Source: an uncultured Eubacteriales bacterium
GTDB lineage: Bacteria; Bacillota; Clostridia; Lachnospirales; Lachnospiraceae
NCBI GenBank assembly: GCA_900314565.1
Contig: OMVU01000016.1
Location: forward strand, 1-64,000
Direction: 5' to 3'
DNA length: 64,000 bases
Shown here: positions 30,030 to 54,094 of the stretch, piece after piece
Numbering within the stretch: the stretch's first letter is position 1
Layout of the letters: the number at the start of each line of letters is the position of its first letter
Notes under the pieces: model-generated
The model's input: the letters and a program-made list of their open reading frames with translations, nothing else
Told to the model about the DNA's origin: nothing
Database searches by the model: none
Made by a program: the position numbers and the translations under genes

Positions 30030-30899
30030 TTGCTTACTTTTTTTGAAAAGATCAAAACTTTTCTTTCGGAAATATATATGCCGAGGCTCCAGATCAATGA
30101 TCTTCTTGAGATTCTGATCATTGCTGTTCTTCTGTACGTGTTCATGGTGTGGATCCAGAGTACACGGGCGTATACGCTGCTGCGCGGGATCCTCGTTGTG
30201 GGTATTTTTACCATTTTCGCCTGGGTCTTTCAGCTGACGACGATCCTTTGGATCTCACAGAAGATCGCGTCTGTCGCCCTGATCGCTCTGGTCATCATTT
30301 TTCAGCCGGAGCTTCGAAAAGCCCTGGATTCGCTGGGACAGAGAAATTTTATCTTTCATTTTTTTGTTTTTGACAATTCACAGGAGACCGTGCGGTTTTC
30401 AGACGCGATCATCAATGAGATCATTCGGGCAGTCAATGAGATGGCAGAGGTCCGTACAGGTGCCCTGATCGTCATTGAACAGAATATTCGGCTGGACGAG
30501 TTCATTAATACAGGGATCGAGATGGACTCGCTCATCTCGAGCCAGCTTCTGGTCAATATCTTCGAACACAACACACCGCTGCATGACGGCGCGGTCATTA
30601 TGCGCGGAGAGCGTCTTGTCGCCGCGACCTGCTATCTTCCCCTGTCGGAAAATGTTTCCATCAGCAAGAAGTACGGCACCAGACACCGCGCAGCCCTCGG
30701 AATCAGTGAAATGAGCGATTCTTTCACGATCATTGTTTCCGAGGAGACCGGACGCGTATCGTATGCATATATGGGAGAGCTGACGACCGGCGTTACGCCG
30801 AGCGAGCTGAGAGAGCAGCTGCATTACGTACAGCAGAATTCAATGAAAGACCGGAATGAGAATAACAGATTCCGGATCTGGAAAGTGCGGGATAAATGA
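30030..30899 (+). CDS. cdaA: Diadenylate cyclase CdaA (c-di-AMP synthase)
   Basis: CdaA joins two ATP molecules into cyclic di-AMP, which controls potassium and osmolyte balance and wall integrity. The 289-residue protein starts with TTG after GGAGAGGA. Three membrane helices occupy about residues 28-92; the DAC domain follows with the catalytic motifs DGA (186-188) and RHR (218-220). The cdaR start overlaps its stop by four bases (ATGA). In most Firmicutes glmM comes third; here it is absent. Confidence 0.96.
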   Translation: MLTFFEKIKTFLSEIYMPRLQINDLLEILIIAVLLYVFMVWIQSTRAYTLLRGILVVGIFTIFAWVFQLTTILWISQKIASVALIALVIIFQPELRKALDSLGQRNFIFHFFVFDNSQETVRFSDAIINEIIRAVNEMAEVRTGALIVIEQNIRLDEFINTGIEMDSLISSQLLVNIFEHNTPLHDGAVIMRGERLVAATCYLPLSENVSISKKYGTRHRAALGISEMSDSFTIIVSEETGRVSYAYMGELTTGVTPSELREQLHYVQQNSMKDRNENNRFRIWKVRDK

Positions 30900-32182
30900 T
30901 AAAAAGCAAGATTATCAAGCATCCGGGCCTTGCTGTTATTTCCCTGGTGCTTGCGTTCATTATCTGGTTCATCATCACAAATTACAGGAATCCGGTCATT
31001 ACGAGAACGATCACGGGAGTTCCCGTCAATGTCATCAACGCGTCCCATGTTGAGAGCATGGGACTTTCCTACAGTCTTGCCGCGGGATACGATACCGTAT
31101 CCGTAACAGTGAGGGGCAACAGATCCAATGTGGAATCTCTGAGAGCTTCCAATATTACCGTGGATGCGGATCTCACACAGCTGATCAGTCTTGACACAAG
31201 TCCGGTCATGGTCCCGCTCAGCGTTACCATTCCCGGAATTCCCCCGGAAAACTGTACCGCAAATCCACGGAACATCGGAATAGAACTGGAGGAGCGTGTA
31301 AGCAAGGACTTTGTTATTACCGCATCCAACGGCAATACAAAACCGGCGAACGGGTATGAGATCGGAGTCATGACAGTGGAGCCGGAAAAGCTGACAGTGC
31401 GCGGTCCGAATACGCTGATCGATCGAATCGACAGGATCAACGCGATGGTGGATGTGACAAATAAGAGCAGGAGCGGAGTCTATCCGTGTGTCATTAAAGT
31501 CATGGACAAGAACGGGGAGGAGCTGGACGATACAAAGATGTCTTCCCTTTCCTTCAGTACAGACGAGTCCGCGATCAGAGTGGACATAGCCTTTTATAAA
31601 GTGCAGAGCGGTGTGAAGGTGAAGGTCGAGACGAGCGGAGAGCCTGCTGCCGGTTATCAGATCGGCGAGATCGTGACGACGCCTGCGACAATATCCGTTG
31701 TCGGGGATGAAACGGCGCTCAAAGAGCTTTCTGACGCAGGGAACACGATTACGATCACCTCCGGTTCACAGACAGTTGACTGTACGGGTGCGAAAGAAGA
31801 TTTTGATGTCCGTGTTGATATACGGGATTTCCTTCCCGAAAGTCTCAGACTGGCGGAGGAGGTCACCAATGTCGTCATGGTGAGTGTTCATATTCTCCCG
31901 TATAACAGCAAGCTGATCTCTATTGAGTCGCAGTCGATCGCCAAGGAAAATCTGGACAGCACGCTGAACTGTGTGTTCGACGTGAGCAAGGTCGATATCA
32001 AGGTACAGGGAACGGATCAGGCACTCTCGTCGCTGACAAAGGATGCTGTTCGGGCGACTGTCGACCTTACAGGTCTTTCAGAAGGCAGCCACGTCGTTCC
32101 GGTCAATGTGACACTGCCGGAAGGTCTGGAGCTCGTAGAGAACGTGTCCGTCAGTGTGACTTTGTCAAAGACACGGACATAG
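30896..32182 (+). CDS. cdaR: CdaR (YbbR-domain) regulator of CdaA
   Basis: CdaR is an extracytoplasmic protein that binds and regulates CdaA. The 428 residues begin with one membrane helix (about 10-27) followed by about four YbbR repeats of 80-90 residues; each repeat has a pattern like PVMVPLSVTIPG or SGVKVKVETSGEPAAGYQIGEI. The ATG overlaps the cdaA stop. A palindromic repeat element begins 20 bases after the stop. Confidence 0.93.
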   Translation: MIKSKIIKHPGLAVISLVLAFIIWFIITNYRNPVITRTITGVPVNVINASHVESMGLSYSLAAGYDTVSVTVRGNRSNVESLRASNITVDADLTQLISLDTSPVMVPLSVTIPGIPPENCTANPRNIGIELEERVSKDFVITASNGNTKPANGYEIGVMTVEPEKLTVRGPNTLIDRIDRINAMVDVTNKSRSGVYPCVIKVMDKNGEELDDTKMSSLSFSTDESAIRVDIAFYKVQSGVKVKVETSGEPAAGYQIGEIVTTPATISVVGDETALKELSDAGNTITITSGSQTVDCTGAKEDFDVRVDIRDFLPESLRLAEEVTNVVMVSVHILPYNSKLISIESQSIAKENLDSTLNCVFDVSKVDIKVQGTDQALSSLTKDAVRATVDLTGLSEGSHVVPVNVTLPEGLELVENVSVSVTLSKTRT

Positions 32183-32201: not shown

Positions 32202-32300
32202 CAAGAACGCCTCGGCGTTCTTGCCGCGACGTGCGCGGCGCGTAAGCGCCTTCCATTGCGCACGTCTGCGATCCGCCGGAGGCTTTTATTCTTCATCGCG
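32202..32300. repeat. Intergenic palindromic repeat, full copy
   Basis: CAAGAACGCC-TC-GGCGTTCTTG (32202-32223) is followed by GACGTGCGC (32228-32236) pairing with GCGCACGTC (32258-32266) around an inner hairpin GGCGC-GTAA-GCGCC. It continues through GGAGG and TTATTCTTCATCGCG into the start of the next gene. It is about 90% identical to 59455-59540. Confidence 0.85.
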
Positions 32301-32573
32301 ATGGTCAGCAGAAAAGTCAGAGTGATCAATGAAACGGGGCTTCATTTGAAACCGGCCGCTTATTTCTGTAAGGAGGCCCTTCTTTTTAAGAGCCTGGTGA
32401 CGTTTTCTTTCGGAAACACAACTGCCAATGCAAAGAGCGTTCTCTCGGTCCTCTCCGCCTGCGTGAAGTGCGGAGATGAGATAGAAATTGTCTGCGACGG
32501 TCCGGATGAGCGGGAGGCCCTGCGTTCGATGTGCGCGGCTGTCGAGAGCGGCCTGGGAGAGCAGGTCGATTAA
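32301..32573 (+). CDS. Second HPr-family protein (His15 and Ser46 both present)
   Basis: This 90-residue protein has the HPr fold signature GLHLKPAA with His15, but Lys replaces Arg17, and a NAKSVLSVLS stretch with Ser46. It therefore keeps the HPr-kinase site that the first HPr (881) lacks. It could be a regulatory HPr comparable in role to Crh of Bacillus, although Crh lacks His15. The ATG at 32301 has no well-placed Shine-Dalgarno: the nearest GGAGG is 19 bases away and lies inside the repeat element. Six Cys residues are unusual for HPr. Neighbours are cdaR and a carboxypeptidase gene. Confidence 0.85.
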   Translation: MVSRKVRVINETGLHLKPAAYFCKEALLFKSLVTFSFGNTTANAKSVLSVLSACVKCGDEIEIVCDGPDEREALRSMCAAVESGLGEQVD

Positions 32574-50715: not shown

Positions 50716-52875
50716 ATGAAAAAGTTGATGATTCTCGGCGCTGCCTATACGCAGACTCCGCTCTATCAGGCCGCGAAAAGGCTGGGCTATGCGACGGTCG
50801 CCGCCAGCATTCCGGGCGACTGGCCGGGTTTTGAACTGGCGGATGAGTGCGCGTATGTCAATATCGCGGATCCGGAGGCGGTCGCGGAAGCGGCCGGGGC
50901 ATTTCATGCGGACGGGATCGCGACCTGCGGGCTCGATCTGGGAATGCGCGCGATCGGGGAGACCGTAAGCCGCCACGGATTGGTCGGTCCGTCCAGGGAG
51001 GCTGCGCGGATCGTCTCGGACAAGTCTCTTATGAAGGAAGCTTTTGTCCGCGGCGGTGTATCTACGGCCCGTTTTTATAAGATATCCACGGAGGAGGAGC
51101 TCGAGGCTGCCATGCAGCGTCTGCCGTTCCCCGTTATTCTGAAGGCGGTCGACCTCATGGGAAGCCGCGGGATTTACCGCAGCAATACGCCGGAGGAAGC
51201 CCGGATAAACTTCAGGAAGAGCATGAGCGAGACCGGAAAGGACTACTGCCTGATCGAGGAATTTATCGAGGGAGAGCTGTTCGGAGTCGAGGCGATGATC
51301 TCCGGCGGCGAGTTTCTTTTCATTTTGCCGAATAATACGGAGGCCTTTATCGGAGCGGTCCCGACGCCGGTCGGGCATTCGGTCCCGCTCAATGACATTG
51401 ACAGTATGCGGGACCTGATCGAAAAGGAAGTCCGGGCTGCTGTCCGGGCCACCGGGCTCGATAACTGCCCGGTGAACTGCGACTGTCTGAAGAAAGACGG
51501 AAAGGTATACGTCGTCGAGATCACGGGGCGGTCCGGCGCGACAGGTCTTTCAGAGATGACGGGAGAGCGGTTCGGGGTCAATTATTACGAGGAGATCGTA
51601 CGCCTTGCCATGGGGGAGGATCTCACGAAAGATTTTCGGAATGAGCGGGAGAGGGCGGTCCTTGCCCGCACGCTCATGGCGAAAAGAAGCGGGATTGTTC
51701 GAAAAATCGTTGACACGAACGAAAAAAATGATACTCTTTTAGAGCTGTCGTTCAATATCGGACCCGGAGATGCTGTCCGTCCTTACACGAACGGGCGTGA
51801 CCGGATCGGACAGGTCATCCTGTCCGGGAGTACGCTCGCTGAATGTGAGAAGACGCTTCACCGCGTCGAGTCGAATATAGACATCATCCTCACCCGTGAC
51901 CTTCCTGTTCCGGAGACACCGATCCACTTTGCGGTGAAAGCAGAAGGCGGACAGAATATTTACGTGAAGCGGGAGGATATGATCCCGTTTTCCTTCGGCG
52001 GAAATAAAGTGCGCTTTTCAGCCGGATATCTCGCGGATATGGAGGAGCGCGGCTGCGACGCGATGATCATATACGGCGGGTATAACTCGAATCTCTGCAG
52101 GATCCTCTCGGATGCATGCAGGATGAGAGGGCTCCCCTGCAGCATGATCCACAATATCGACGACGCGGAAGAAGACGAGAATACACCGAATGCGCGGATG
52201 ATCCGGGCTGCTGGAGTCCGGGAGTATCCCTGTCACAAGGGTCCCGCGATCGCAGATGCCGTCGAACAGGCAATGGCGGATTTCGTGCAGGAGGGCAGAA
52301 AGCCCTACTATATTAACGGGGACAGGACCGGACACGGGAATGTCCATGTGCCGATGCGTGCCTATGACGCGGCGTACGATGAGATCGTCCGATCTGAGGA
52401 GGCGTCCGGGGTTCATTTTTCGAAAATATATCTCGCGGCGAGTACCTGCACGACGCAGTCAGGCCTGATCGCCGGGAGCATCCGGCACGGGGATGACCGT
52501 GAGATCATCGGTATATCCGTGACGAGAAATAAACAGCGGGCTTCGGAAGTGATTCTCGAAAATCTTCTGGAATACTTTGAAAAGACGGGGGCTTCCGCTC
52601 CTTCGAAGGACGAACTCGCGACGAGGATCCGGGTTCGGGATCAGTATCTTGCGGGCGGATATGCCCTGTATGATGAGGAGATCGAGCGGGTGATCCGTGA
52701 GACCTATCTGGGTGCGGGGATTCCTCTCGATCCGGTCTATACCGGGAAGGCTTTCCGCGGCATGCTGGCGGATCTTGACAGTGCTTCCCGTGAGGATGAG
52801 AACATTCTCTTCCTTCACACCGGCGGGGCGCCGCTGTTCTTCGAATATCTGGAAAAACAAGGATTTGAGGAGTGA
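50716..52875 (+). CDS. Fusion: ATP-grasp ligase + PLP-dependent D-cysteine desulfhydrase/ACC-deaminase-like domain
   Basis: The 719-residue protein joins two enzymes in one frame. Residues 1-390 repeat the ATP-grasp layout of the gene before it (KLMILGAAYTQTPLYQAAKRLGY; FPVILKAVDLMGSRGIY; CLIEEFIEGELFGVE; VVEITGRSGATGLSEMTG). From about 395 it is a fold-type II PLP enzyme: VKREDMIPFSFGGNKVRF with PLP Lys431, IIYGGYNSNLCR, and LDPVYTGKAFRGML...FLHTGG. That second half matches D-cysteine desulfhydrase/ACC deaminase. AGAGGAAG precedes the ATG, 10 bases after the first ATP-grasp gene. I know of no characterised protein with this fusion. Confidence 0.88.
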   Translation: MKKLMILGAAYTQTPLYQAAKRLGYATVAASIPGDWPGFELADECAYVNIADPEAVAEAAGAFHADGIATCGLDLGMRAIGETVSRHGLVGPSREAARIVSDKSLMKEAFVRGGVSTARFYKISTEEELEAAMQRLPFPVILKAVDLMGSRGIYRSNTPEEARINFRKSMSETGKDYCLIEEFIEGELFGVEAMISGGEFLFILPNNTEAFIGAVPTPVGHSVPLNDIDSMRDLIEKEVRAAVRATGLDNCPVNCDCLKKDGKVYVVEITGRSGATGLSEMTGERFGVNYYEEIVRLAMGEDLTKDFRNERERAVLARTLMAKRSGIVRKIVDTNEKNDTLLELSFNIGPGDAVRPYTNGRDRIGQVILSGSTLAECEKTLHRVESNIDIILTRDLPVPETPIHFAVKAEGGQNIYVKREDMIPFSFGGNKVRFSAGYLADMEERGCDAMIIYGGYNSNLCRILSDACRMRGLPCSMIHNIDDAEEDENTPNARMIRAAGVREYPCHKGPAIADAVEQAMADFVQEGRKPYYINGDRTGHGNVHVPMRAYDAAYDEIVRSEEASGVHFSKIYLAASTCTTQSGLIAGSIRHGDDREIIGISVTRNKQRASEVILENLLEYFEKTGASAPSKDELATRIRVRDQYLAGGYALYDEEIERVIRETYLGAGIPLDPVYTGKAFRGMLADLDSASREDENILFLHTGGAPLFFEYLEKQGFEE

Positions 52876-53098
52876 GCGGCACGGCTCGTTTTACGGAGGT
52901 TTACACGGAGGTTTATCTAATCAGGACCGGCCCTCGCAAGAGGGGCCCGAGCGCCGCTGCGGGGCGAAAGGGTATAAGATGAAAGGGAGTCAGCTGAGAG
53001 CCTTCCAGACCGCAGCGTGTGCATCCCCCGGAGGGAAAACATAATAAACCTCCGGATCAGAGTTAGATGAGGCTTGACCCCTTTTACGGAGGTTTATT
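52876..53098 (+). promoter_or_regulatory. Leader region with SD-sequestering hairpin before the GT2 gene (candidate translational attenuator)
   Basis: A 17-bp perfect inverted repeat (53038-53054 with 53087-53103, loop 32 bases) would bury both the Shine-Dalgarno (CGGAGG, 53087-53092) and the ATG (53099) of the GT2 gene. Two further copies of CGGAGGTTTA upstream (52894-52903 and 52906-52915) can pair with the same left arm and free the site. In between lie a GNRA-capped stem (GGCCCTC-GCAA-GAGGGGCC) and a long-range stem CGCTGCGG/CCGCAGCG. A short leader ORF ends inside the left arm. No known riboswitch class recognised. Confidence 0.7.
52979..53044 (+). CDS. Putative 21-residue leader peptide
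   Basis: ATG at 52979 lies six bases after GAAAGGG. The frame encodes a peptide beginning MKGSQLRA and ending ASPGGKT, with TAA at 53042-53044. That stop lies within the left arm of the hairpin that masks the next gene's ribosome-binding site, so a ribosome ending or stalling here would open the hairpin. Too short to judge by coding statistics; existence rests on the placement. Confidence 0.45.
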   Translation: MKGSQLRAFQTAACASPGGKT

Positions 53099-54094
53099 AT
53101 GTTGGTGTCTATTGTTATTCCGTGCTATAATTCCGAGCACACCATTGAGCGGGTCGCTGACGCATGCGCCGAGACCTTTGCAAAGTTAGACGGCTACGAC
53201 TACGAGATGGTCCTGGTCAATGACTATTCAAAGGACGATACGTTCGGCGCCATCACCCGCGTGTGTCAGAAATACAGCAATGTAAAAGGAGTGAATCTGG
53301 CCAGAAATTTCGGGCAGCACGCCGCGATCATGGCCGGTCTTCACTATGTGAACGGAGATTTTGTCGTCGGCATGGATGACGACCTGCAGAATCATCCGGA
53401 CCAGATCGTGCAGTTCCTTGAGAAGGCGGAGCAGGGCTACGACGTCGTCTTCGGTGTTTTCAAGGAGAGAAAGTTTAACGCCTTCAAGAATCTGACAGGG
53501 GCGGTCAGCAGATTCCTTCTCTGGCATCTTCTCGAACGGCCGAAGGACATCCAGATGTCCAGCTTCTGGCTCGCAAGGCGCTATGTGATCGATAAGGTGA
53601 AGGAGTACGAGGGGGACAGCCCCTTTATCCAGCTCCTTTTCTTCAGGACGACCTATAATATGGCGAACATCGAGATCGAGCACTTTGAGCGTGAGGTCGG
53701 ACAGTCGAACTACACGTTCCGCAAAGGGCTCCGGCTGTTCCTGTCCATGATCAGCTATACGGTCGCACCGCTTCAGTGGGCTTATTTCTTCGGTGTGGTA
53801 TTTTCCATGGTCGGATTCTTAGGCGGCATTATCGTCTTCGTGCATAAGCTGCTGAATCCGAACACTGCCGTCGGATGGTCCTCGATCATGTGCGTGCTCT
53901 TCATTTTCTTCGGGATCGTCTTCCTGATGCTCGGCGTCATCGGCGATTATCTGGGGAAAATGGTGCTGAACCTCAGCAGGAAACCGCAGTATGTCGTCCG
54001 GGATGAGGTCAACGTCAATGCAGAGCTCCCGACGGGCGTGGTGGATACCGCATCCGGGCGGACGGATCCTGTCGCTGACACAGAATCCTCGTGA
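53099..54094 (+). CDS. GT2 glycosyltransferase, ArnC/CsbB-like, with two C-terminal helices
   Basis: The 331-residue protein has a GT2 domain (VSIVIPCYNSEHTIERV, VNDYSKDDT, ARNFGQHAA, GMDDDLQNHP) and two membrane helices (about 228-255 and 265-290). This layout belongs to enzymes that load a sugar on undecaprenyl phosphate. It follows the ATP-grasp fusion gene, so its donor may be the modified sugar made there. The start ATG and CGGAGG site are masked by the hairpin described at 52876. Confidence 0.9.
   Translation: MLVSIVIPCYNSEHTIERVADACAETFAKLDGYDYEMVLVNDYSKDDTFGAITRVCQKYSNVKGVNLARNFGQHAAIMAGLHYVNGDFVVGMDDDLQNHPDQIVQFLEKAEQGYDVVFGVFKERKFNAFKNLTGAVSRFLLWHLLERPKDIQMSSFWLARRYVIDKVKEYEGDSPFIQLLFFRTTYNMANIEIEHFEREVGQSNYTFRKGLRLFLSMISYTVAPLQWAYFFGVVFSMVGFLGGIIVFVHKLLNPNTAVGWSSIMCVLFIFFGIVFLMLGVIGDYLGKMVLNLSRKPQYVVRDEVNVNAELPTGVVDTASGRTDPVADTESS

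Follow-up and report, generated by a model that had tools for sequence, protein, structure and literature searches.

Translational attenuators of the erm and cat type hold the Shine-Dalgarno (SD) sequence and the AUG of the regulated gene in a stem, the 5' arm of which overlaps a short open reading frame (ORF). A locus with this appearance is found in the stretch of 64,000 nucleotides analysed here (the window), which comes from a genome of the family Lachnospiraceae (G000). In this locus, a glycosyltransferase gene (GT2; 53099-54094, plus strand; Pfam Glycos_transf_2, E 1.4e-29) lies downstream of a gene encoding a fusion of ATP-grasp and PLP-dependent enzymes (50716-52875, plus strand; Pfam PALP, LAL_C2 and ATP-grasp families), its SD and AUG are in the 3' arm of a stem, and a short ORF runs into the 5' arm. 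An earlier note on this DNA therefore read the spacer between the two genes as an attenuator, in which ribosomes on a leader would control GT2 in response to a signal. In this paper, we ask whether the spacer is such an attenuator or has a different origin, and what it may do to the translation of GT2.

Results

The inverted repeat and the copies of the ribosome binding site

The two arms of the inverted repeat (53038-53054 and 53087-53103) are 17 nt long, 100% complementary and 32 nt apart, and the 3' arm contains the SD (GGAGG, 53088-53092) and the AUG (53099-53101) of GT2. One perfect inverted repeat of at least 17 nt within 60 nt was observed, whereas 60 simulated 64-kb sequences (order-2 Markov) gave none; thus, the repeat described in the earlier note as burying the ribosome binding site (RBS) and ATG of GT2 is present, and far above chance. 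The copies of CGGAGGTTTA reported together with it are likewise found at 52894, 52906 and 53087. In the window the GT2 RBS reads CGGAGGTTTA, differing from the GAGGAG, ancestral in appearance, that still ends the fusion gene. When up to two mismatches were allowed, TTTACGGAGGTTTA matched five times in the 64-kb window, three of them in the GT2 spacer, versus 0.18 matches expected. The two upstream copies (TTTTACGGAGGTTTA and ACACGGAGGTTTAT, 52890-52915, plus strand) are orphan RBS-like sequences with no start codon behind either, and 52890-52915 forms with 53071-53096 a 26-nt direct repeat of 81% identity. The 11-mer ACGGAGGTTTA occurs at five places in the G000 genome, and the two outside the GT2 spacer are RBSs preceding an ATG. 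The fold of the whole spacer is only moderately better than that of shuffled sequences (z -2.0; 6 of 200 shuffles were equally stable). A phase-variable promoter within the inverted repeat was considered and rejected, a single weak promoter-like match having been found (53074-53103) with 0.5 expected by shuffling.

The putative leader ORF

The 21-codon ORF taken for the leader is indeed present (52979-53044, plus strand; translation MKGSQLRAFQTAACASPGGKT, then a stop), but it is neither beyond chance nor conserved: a closed ATG ORF of at least 21 codons occurs in 26% of first-order Markov spacers, and an ORF of at least 15 codons ending in the region of the 5' arm in 5.4% of them. Half of it, moreover, is the core of a repeat that is described below. 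In the folding model, masking of 53030-53058, as by a ribosome at the leader stop, is predicted to free the AUG (unpaired probability 0.81-0.88), but most of the SD bases stay paired. Competing pairings are also predicted, with -25.1 kcal/mol for the 17-bp stem, -16.9 and -15.8 kcal/mol for the upstream copies and -14.3 kcal/mol for the box GCGTGTGCATCCCCCGGAGGG; this box also contains a 7-bp stretch with which the anti-SD arm could pair instead (fold of 53025-53057, -13.9 kcal/mol), and an anti-anti-SD pairing through CCC-GGA-GGG and the P-G-G codons would be possible.

The spacer in related genomes

The closest relative, G005, has the same gene order and a GT2 that is 94% identical in protein and 87% in DNA, with the fusion gene and GT2 13 nt apart (TGA GGAGAAATTCATT ATG). 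Comparison with this locus (L148) shows that a stretch at 52873-53098 (plus strand) in the window replaces the 13-nt gap; its left break, after GAGGAG, was placed by eye, and the right one is uncertain, as the 3' arm of P3 (see below) extends to 53103. Among 25 other GT2 loci from 23 genomes of the genus, none contained the core according to the model R2, and none had the box (up to three mismatches) or a perfect inverted repeat of more than 8 nt onto the start region; within this set, L149 covers only 342 nt upstream and L172 554 nt, and L171 and L172 are second, more distant matches. The lack of stem and leader in close relatives, named in the earlier note as the observation that would speak against attenuation, is therefore what these genomes display. 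Presence and absence at orthologous sites can be compared at one site only, that of the window versus G005, and the alternative that G005 lost the repeat could also explain the difference.

Architecture of the repeat copy in the window

The spacer can be divided into parts that recur elsewhere. At its 5' side is the left-terminal hairpin H0 (GGCCCTC-GCAA-GAGGGGCC, 52929-52947, plus strand; fold of 52925-52948, -11.8 kcal/mol). It is followed by the core of stems P1 and P2 (52951-53025, plus strand), in the form GCGC-CGCTGCGG ... CCGCAGCG-T-GTGC-ATC; its inner loop is unusually long, and P1 spans 52951-53022. The box end (53026-53035, plus strand) forms a small hairpin, C-CCC-GGA-GGG (hairpin 53027-53035), according to sequence and local fold, the whole-spacer centroid being different; the core including the box end thus covers 52951-53035, and a box identical to that of the window is found in Eubacterium sp. 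UBA3720 and others. The right-terminal hairpin P3 (53038-53103, plus strand) is the 17-bp perfect stem with its 32-nt loop. The window core scores 37.2 bits (E 2e-7) against model R2, and 55.7 bits against model R1, which was built from 31 sequences with the window core among them. A probable second copy lies in the window at 32202-32283 (plus strand; R2 20.3 bits, E 0.0045), between a gene with a YbbR domain (30896-32182) and an HPr gene (32301-32573; both by Pfam); it has H0, a perfect 10-bp repeat, followed by P1, P2, TTCC, ATCC and GCC-GGA-GGC, and is without P3.

Common secondary structure

From 5' to 3', the layout of the repeat family is H0, P1 with the inner P2, ATCC, a short hairpin rich in G and C in which GGA is common, and P3. 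P1 consists of an outer part, GCGC opposite GYGC plus a single bulged T, and of an inner part of 8 bp that is free in sequence. A perfect 8-nt 5' arm was found in 47 of 79 copies, all 47 of which have GCGC, ACGC or GCAC ahead of it, and a perfect arm in 3 of 1580 shuffled upstream sequences; one of these prefixes is present in 60 of the 79 copies and missing in 19, in several through a truncated 5' side. In 31 copies chosen from the 79, 96.8% of the P1 cells were paired, with 70 double changes versus 18.0 in shuffled alignments; in 33 copies of a wider set, 96.2% were paired, with 97 double changes versus 27.0 and a covariation score of 0.635 versus 0.158, a value that none of 500 shuffles reached. 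These sequences were picked by hand, without copies whose 5' arm is truncated or unclear, so that the percentage paired is inflated; between the alignments A2 (40 sequences) and A3, seven sequences were dropped, four of them because tandem G-A mismatches shifted them in the aligner. In both alignments the covariation was far lower at every 3' slide of one to three columns, and P1 covaries strongly between genera. Furthermore, of 75 copies, 42 have a strong P3 hairpin at the family position and 39 an H0 hairpin immediately 5' of the core, versus 4 and 7, respectively, of 75 control stretches. The P1 covariation and the terminal hairpins establish a common secondary structure for this dispersed repeat.

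Other features are more variable. A bulge near P2 reads UCC or ACC in many copies; both UCC and GGA occur in 62 of 107 distinct cores, GGA with ACC or with neither word in 31, and GGA is absent from 14. With a crude hairpin finder, GGA lies in a triloop in only 27 of the 107 cores, so that the GGA loop is a feature drawn by eye and not a measured rule. On the modelled strand, G.T pairs outnumber A.C mismatches 103 to 8, a ratio biased by a finder that accepts G.T.

Distribution and dispersal

A degenerate pattern for the word TGTGCRTCCCCCGGAGGG, shorter than that of the box, was searched over 397 genomes of the bacterial family to which the window belongs, and matched at most 10 of them, with 62 places in G070; this is an upper count, since the matches in G167 and G344 and one of the two in G145 look like coding chance. 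When aligned, these places display a common architecture and no common peptide. Among named genomes, the exact box pattern GCGTGTGCATCCCCCGGAGGG was found in 65 stretches, 64 of them with clostridial names and many in Eubacterium sp. UBA3720; the sole non-clostridial stretch, from a Gemmatimonadetes metagenome-assembled genome, lies inside an ORF. With model R2 (E up to 0.01), matches were obtained in 13 of 19 chosen genomes, namely at least 80 in G070, 26 in G273, 16 in G021, 15 each in G000 and G005, 10 in G001, 8 in G206, 7 in G026, 5 in G004, 4 in G064, 3 in G088, 2 in G145 and 1 in G007; among the candidates scored, G022 and G028, which belong to the genus, and four genomes from other families gave none. 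Of 295 genomes sampled evenly from the order, 16 were matched (E up to 1e-4), including members of the families f11 and f24, and the core is thus found in three families of the order. The f11 and f24 copies are blocks of similarity of 140-150 nt with sharp ends. Model R1 (E up to 0.1) matched 17 of 42 genomes, several weak matches, among them L125, L131, L132, L133, L138 and L139, looking like chance by eye. A candidate copy in G005 (L006) was dismissed as a chance match within a coding-like stretch, and tRNAs were dismissed as the cause of the uniform R2 matches, ARAGORN having found none in 11 loci.

The copies keep no fixed strand. Relative to the nearest ORFs, core-type copies (n=109) stood as +E+ in 8 cases, -E- in 26, +E- in 14 and -E+ in 18, with ORFs called mechanically; the remaining copies fell within a called ORF or lay where a contig ends. 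In UBA3720, copies often stand in tandem at distances of 110-172 nt. By a crude criterion, 10 of 37 copies of the UBA/VE type have a reverse-strand terminator immediately 3' of P3, versus none of 37 control stretches, as though the UBA3720-type copies preferred terminators as their targets. Taken together, the lack of a fixed strand, the tandem copies and the adjacency to terminators fit dispersed DNA better than leader RNA. At individual loci (L027, L032, L048, L050, L068, L137, L144 and others), the UBA3720-type P3 often adjoins the A-tract of a reverse-strand intrinsic terminator.

A sister subfamily (L206) is about 190 nt long, stands mostly after TTC(AA) and ends in GATAAA. It had 38-50 BLAST matches each in G000, G005, G021, G026 and G070, and none in G017. 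Many of its partial matches, as read from the table of matches, break near GCGCATC, which suggests that left and right halves may have been exchanged. A search of the sister subfamily against plasmids and of the box against viral contigs gave no match. In family f11, the copies L283-L287 and L290 have inverted ends TATAGTAAACGAC when inspected by eye, and these ends were not seen in the other subfamilies; many f11 matches lie about 40 nt from contig ends, which indicates that the repeat breaks assemblies.

A second site in the same genome

Searching G000 with the spacer DNA returned two partial matches besides the spacer itself, one of them 19 kb away before a YfhO-family gene. This site (L004, G000:C126:70350-74400) has TGTGCRTCCCCCGGAGGG in common with the GT2 spacer, followed by an anti-SD arm that is complementary to the RBS and ATG of the YfhO-family gene. 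A degenerate family copy can be made out at about 1986-2110 of the locus. The word at G000:C126:72366-72391 encodes, as read by eye, an in-frame ...DAACASPGGS followed by a stop; neither an ATG start nor a P1 5' arm was found there by eye. The two G000 sites had prompted the idea of a conserved peptide AACASPGG, which was dropped because the word is a repeated DNA box found on either strand. In G005, the orthologous spacer is different in sequence and similar in length, ending in GCGTGCGTCCTCTGGAGGTTTTGAATG. The downstream RBS of L004 is common to G005, and the inverted copy at this site therefore belongs to the G000 lineage.

Discussion

Origin of the spacer and its predicted effect on GT2

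We consider it likely that the GT2 spacer represents one copy of a MITE-like dispersed repeat of the Lachnospirales, non-coding and structured by hairpins, whose P3 would close the GT2 start on read-through messages. The copy would have entered between the fusion gene and GT2 after the split from the nearest sampled relative, with P3 placed precisely over the GT2 RBS and start codon. Messages reading through from the upstream gene would then contain the 17-bp stem in closed form and yield little GT2, so that GT2 translation would be cut off from upstream transcription; in messages that start within the P3 loop, the AUG would be mostly open. Neither a leader peptide nor stalling nor a signal would be required. 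We infer the mobility of the family as well as this effect on translation. For read-through RNA, the predicted probability that SD and AUG are unpaired is at most 0.001, with -25.3 kcal/mol for P3, so that the burial of RBS and AUG in a strong hairpin is supported as a prediction; for a transcript beginning in the P3 loop, the AUG is predicted to be 82-90% open with most SD bases still paired. This predicted occlusion makes a closed start on read-through messages the best-supported function. Among copies with a downstream sense ORF, that of the window is the one with a P3 3' arm ending at the ORF start (gap -4), and two others were flagged with gaps of -39 and -18.

Some observations tell against this reading. 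Only the 42 of 75 copies mentioned above have a strong P3. In addition, the complementarity of the P3 5' arm in the window to host sequence reaches codon 2, and the P3 arms of both G000 sites match the host RBS and ATG, as selection for regulation would predict and passive insertion would not. Template switching at quasi-palindromes is a mechanism that may yield perfect pairing, and either a copying of the host start region in this way or selection might explain the inverted RBS/ATG copy. In the loci examined, no IS-like gene was found between the element ends as a mobilising gene, and no precise target duplication was proven.

The match of P3 to the host start also bears on a reading in which a repeat copy, once domesticated, serves as a simple switch that sequesters the SD, either in the manner of a thermometer or with opening by upstream translation, and without a leader peptide. 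P3 is perfect over 17 bp including SD and AUG, and the L004 arm is similar (CATAAAACCTCCG versus GAGGTTTTTATG) although its RBS is common to G005, so that the inverted copy arose or was kept at the locus; the examples are, however, two sites in a single genome, and the perfect stem may be of recent date or a product of template switching, and we regard domestication as unlikely. Distinctly less probable still is that the family as a whole is a mobile riboregulator, the core of which would spread with exchangeable terminal hairpins, acquire an inverted copy of the RBS and start, and so install a translational lock, GT2 and YfhO being independent examples. To a similarly small degree we credit the possibility that a mobile element carries the core as a functional RNA, either a ribozyme or an orphan regulatory RNA. 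The nearly invariant unpaired letters (the bulged T and ATC), the strong P1 covariation and the finder-biased excess of G.T over A.C would suit such an RNA, but the core keeps no fixed strand relative to genes, belongs to no Rfam family at cut-off, and has a possible UCC-bulge/GGA pairing that is not universal.

True attenuation, in which ribosomes translating or stalling on the 21-codon ORF would open the 17-bp stem and switch on GT2, is the least probable reading, and we think it very improbable. It can draw on the end of the ORF falling within the 5' arm, on the alternative pairings offered by the upstream copies and the box, and on the in-frame ...AACASPGG ahead of the anti-SD arm of L004. 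However, the ORF is within chance expectation, its second half is the repeat core, which is conserved as DNA on either strand in copies without such an ORF, and most SD bases are predicted to remain paired when the leader stop is masked. The stem itself stands where the right-terminal hairpin is placed in a repeat that has copies in both orientations to genes, and core, box and a comparable stem are missing from all 25 other GT2 loci. Unlike the erm and cat attenuators, the GT2 spacer has no conserved leader and no known inducer and is probably of repeat origin; the attenuator architecture proposed for it was therefore rejected as the main reading, and leader stalling and signal sensing at GT2 are without support.

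Relation to known repeats

No Rfam 15 family (4227 families) matched the window at the gathering cut-off, and a known RNA was thereby rejected. Two chance-level matches fell in 52600-53400, and four sub-threshold matches in the loci of nine relatives, one of which, Atu_C8 (28.3 of 50 bits), lay over the P3 side of L027. According to passages of PMC3446304 and PMC2267715, bcr1-bcr18 of Bacillus cereus and BOX and RUP of Streptococcus pneumoniae are non-coding units of 60-200 nt with many copies, intergenic positions and a common structure; bcr1-3 are described as MITE-like and often parts of UTRs (in a passage of PMC3446304), and a family table is included in PMC2267715. In these respects the Lachnospirales repeat is alike, being non-coding, many-copy and intergenic with a shared secondary structure. 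It differs, as judged from descriptions, in host order and core; its own features are P1 with the bulged T, the constant GYGCATCC, and terminal hairpins that differ between subfamilies.

REP-type repeats, as a passage of PMC3733652 has it, are 20-40 bp long and tagged GTAG or CGTC, and CGTC-tagged repeats without a known transposase are reported there; the words Firmicutes and Clostridi are absent from its main text. Such repeats, so far as described there, are palindromic dispersed DNA like the present one, and the CGTC repeats are also without a known transposase. Unlike REPs and REPINs, the Lachnospirales repeat is about 110-200 nt long, has several hairpins, and is not tracked by Y1 genes: the Y1 transposase domain PF01797 occurs in 10 of 14 genomes, is absent from the copy-bearing G206 (68% complete), G221 and G282, and is present in G063 and G074, where no copies were demonstrated. 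The Y1 transposase expected in all carriers of a REP/RAYT system is thus missing from some. Miniature IS200/IS605 elements resemble the sister subfamily, with its usual start behind TTC(AA) and its hairpins close to both ends. In the loci examined, however, we found no tnpA or tnpB element bounded by such ends, and those of the Y1 genes that were inspected were likewise without them, which does not favour an IS200/IS605 or RAYT origin. In the literature searched, from which subscription papers are largely missing, neither the 18-mer GTGTGCATCCCCCGGAGG nor any title or abstract start on such a family of repeats or MITEs in Lachnospiraceae was found; the family, not found in these searches or in Rfam 15, seems to be undescribed.

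Implications

What appeared to be an antibiotic-type switch would then be the insertion of an element, and a search model is now available for structured repeats in a large order of gut bacteria. Such repeats break assemblies, are easily mistaken for riboswitches or attenuators, and may alter the translation of the genes on which they land. If it is true that inverted copies of the RBS arise at the site, they would offer a testable route by which a mobile element could create a translational lock.
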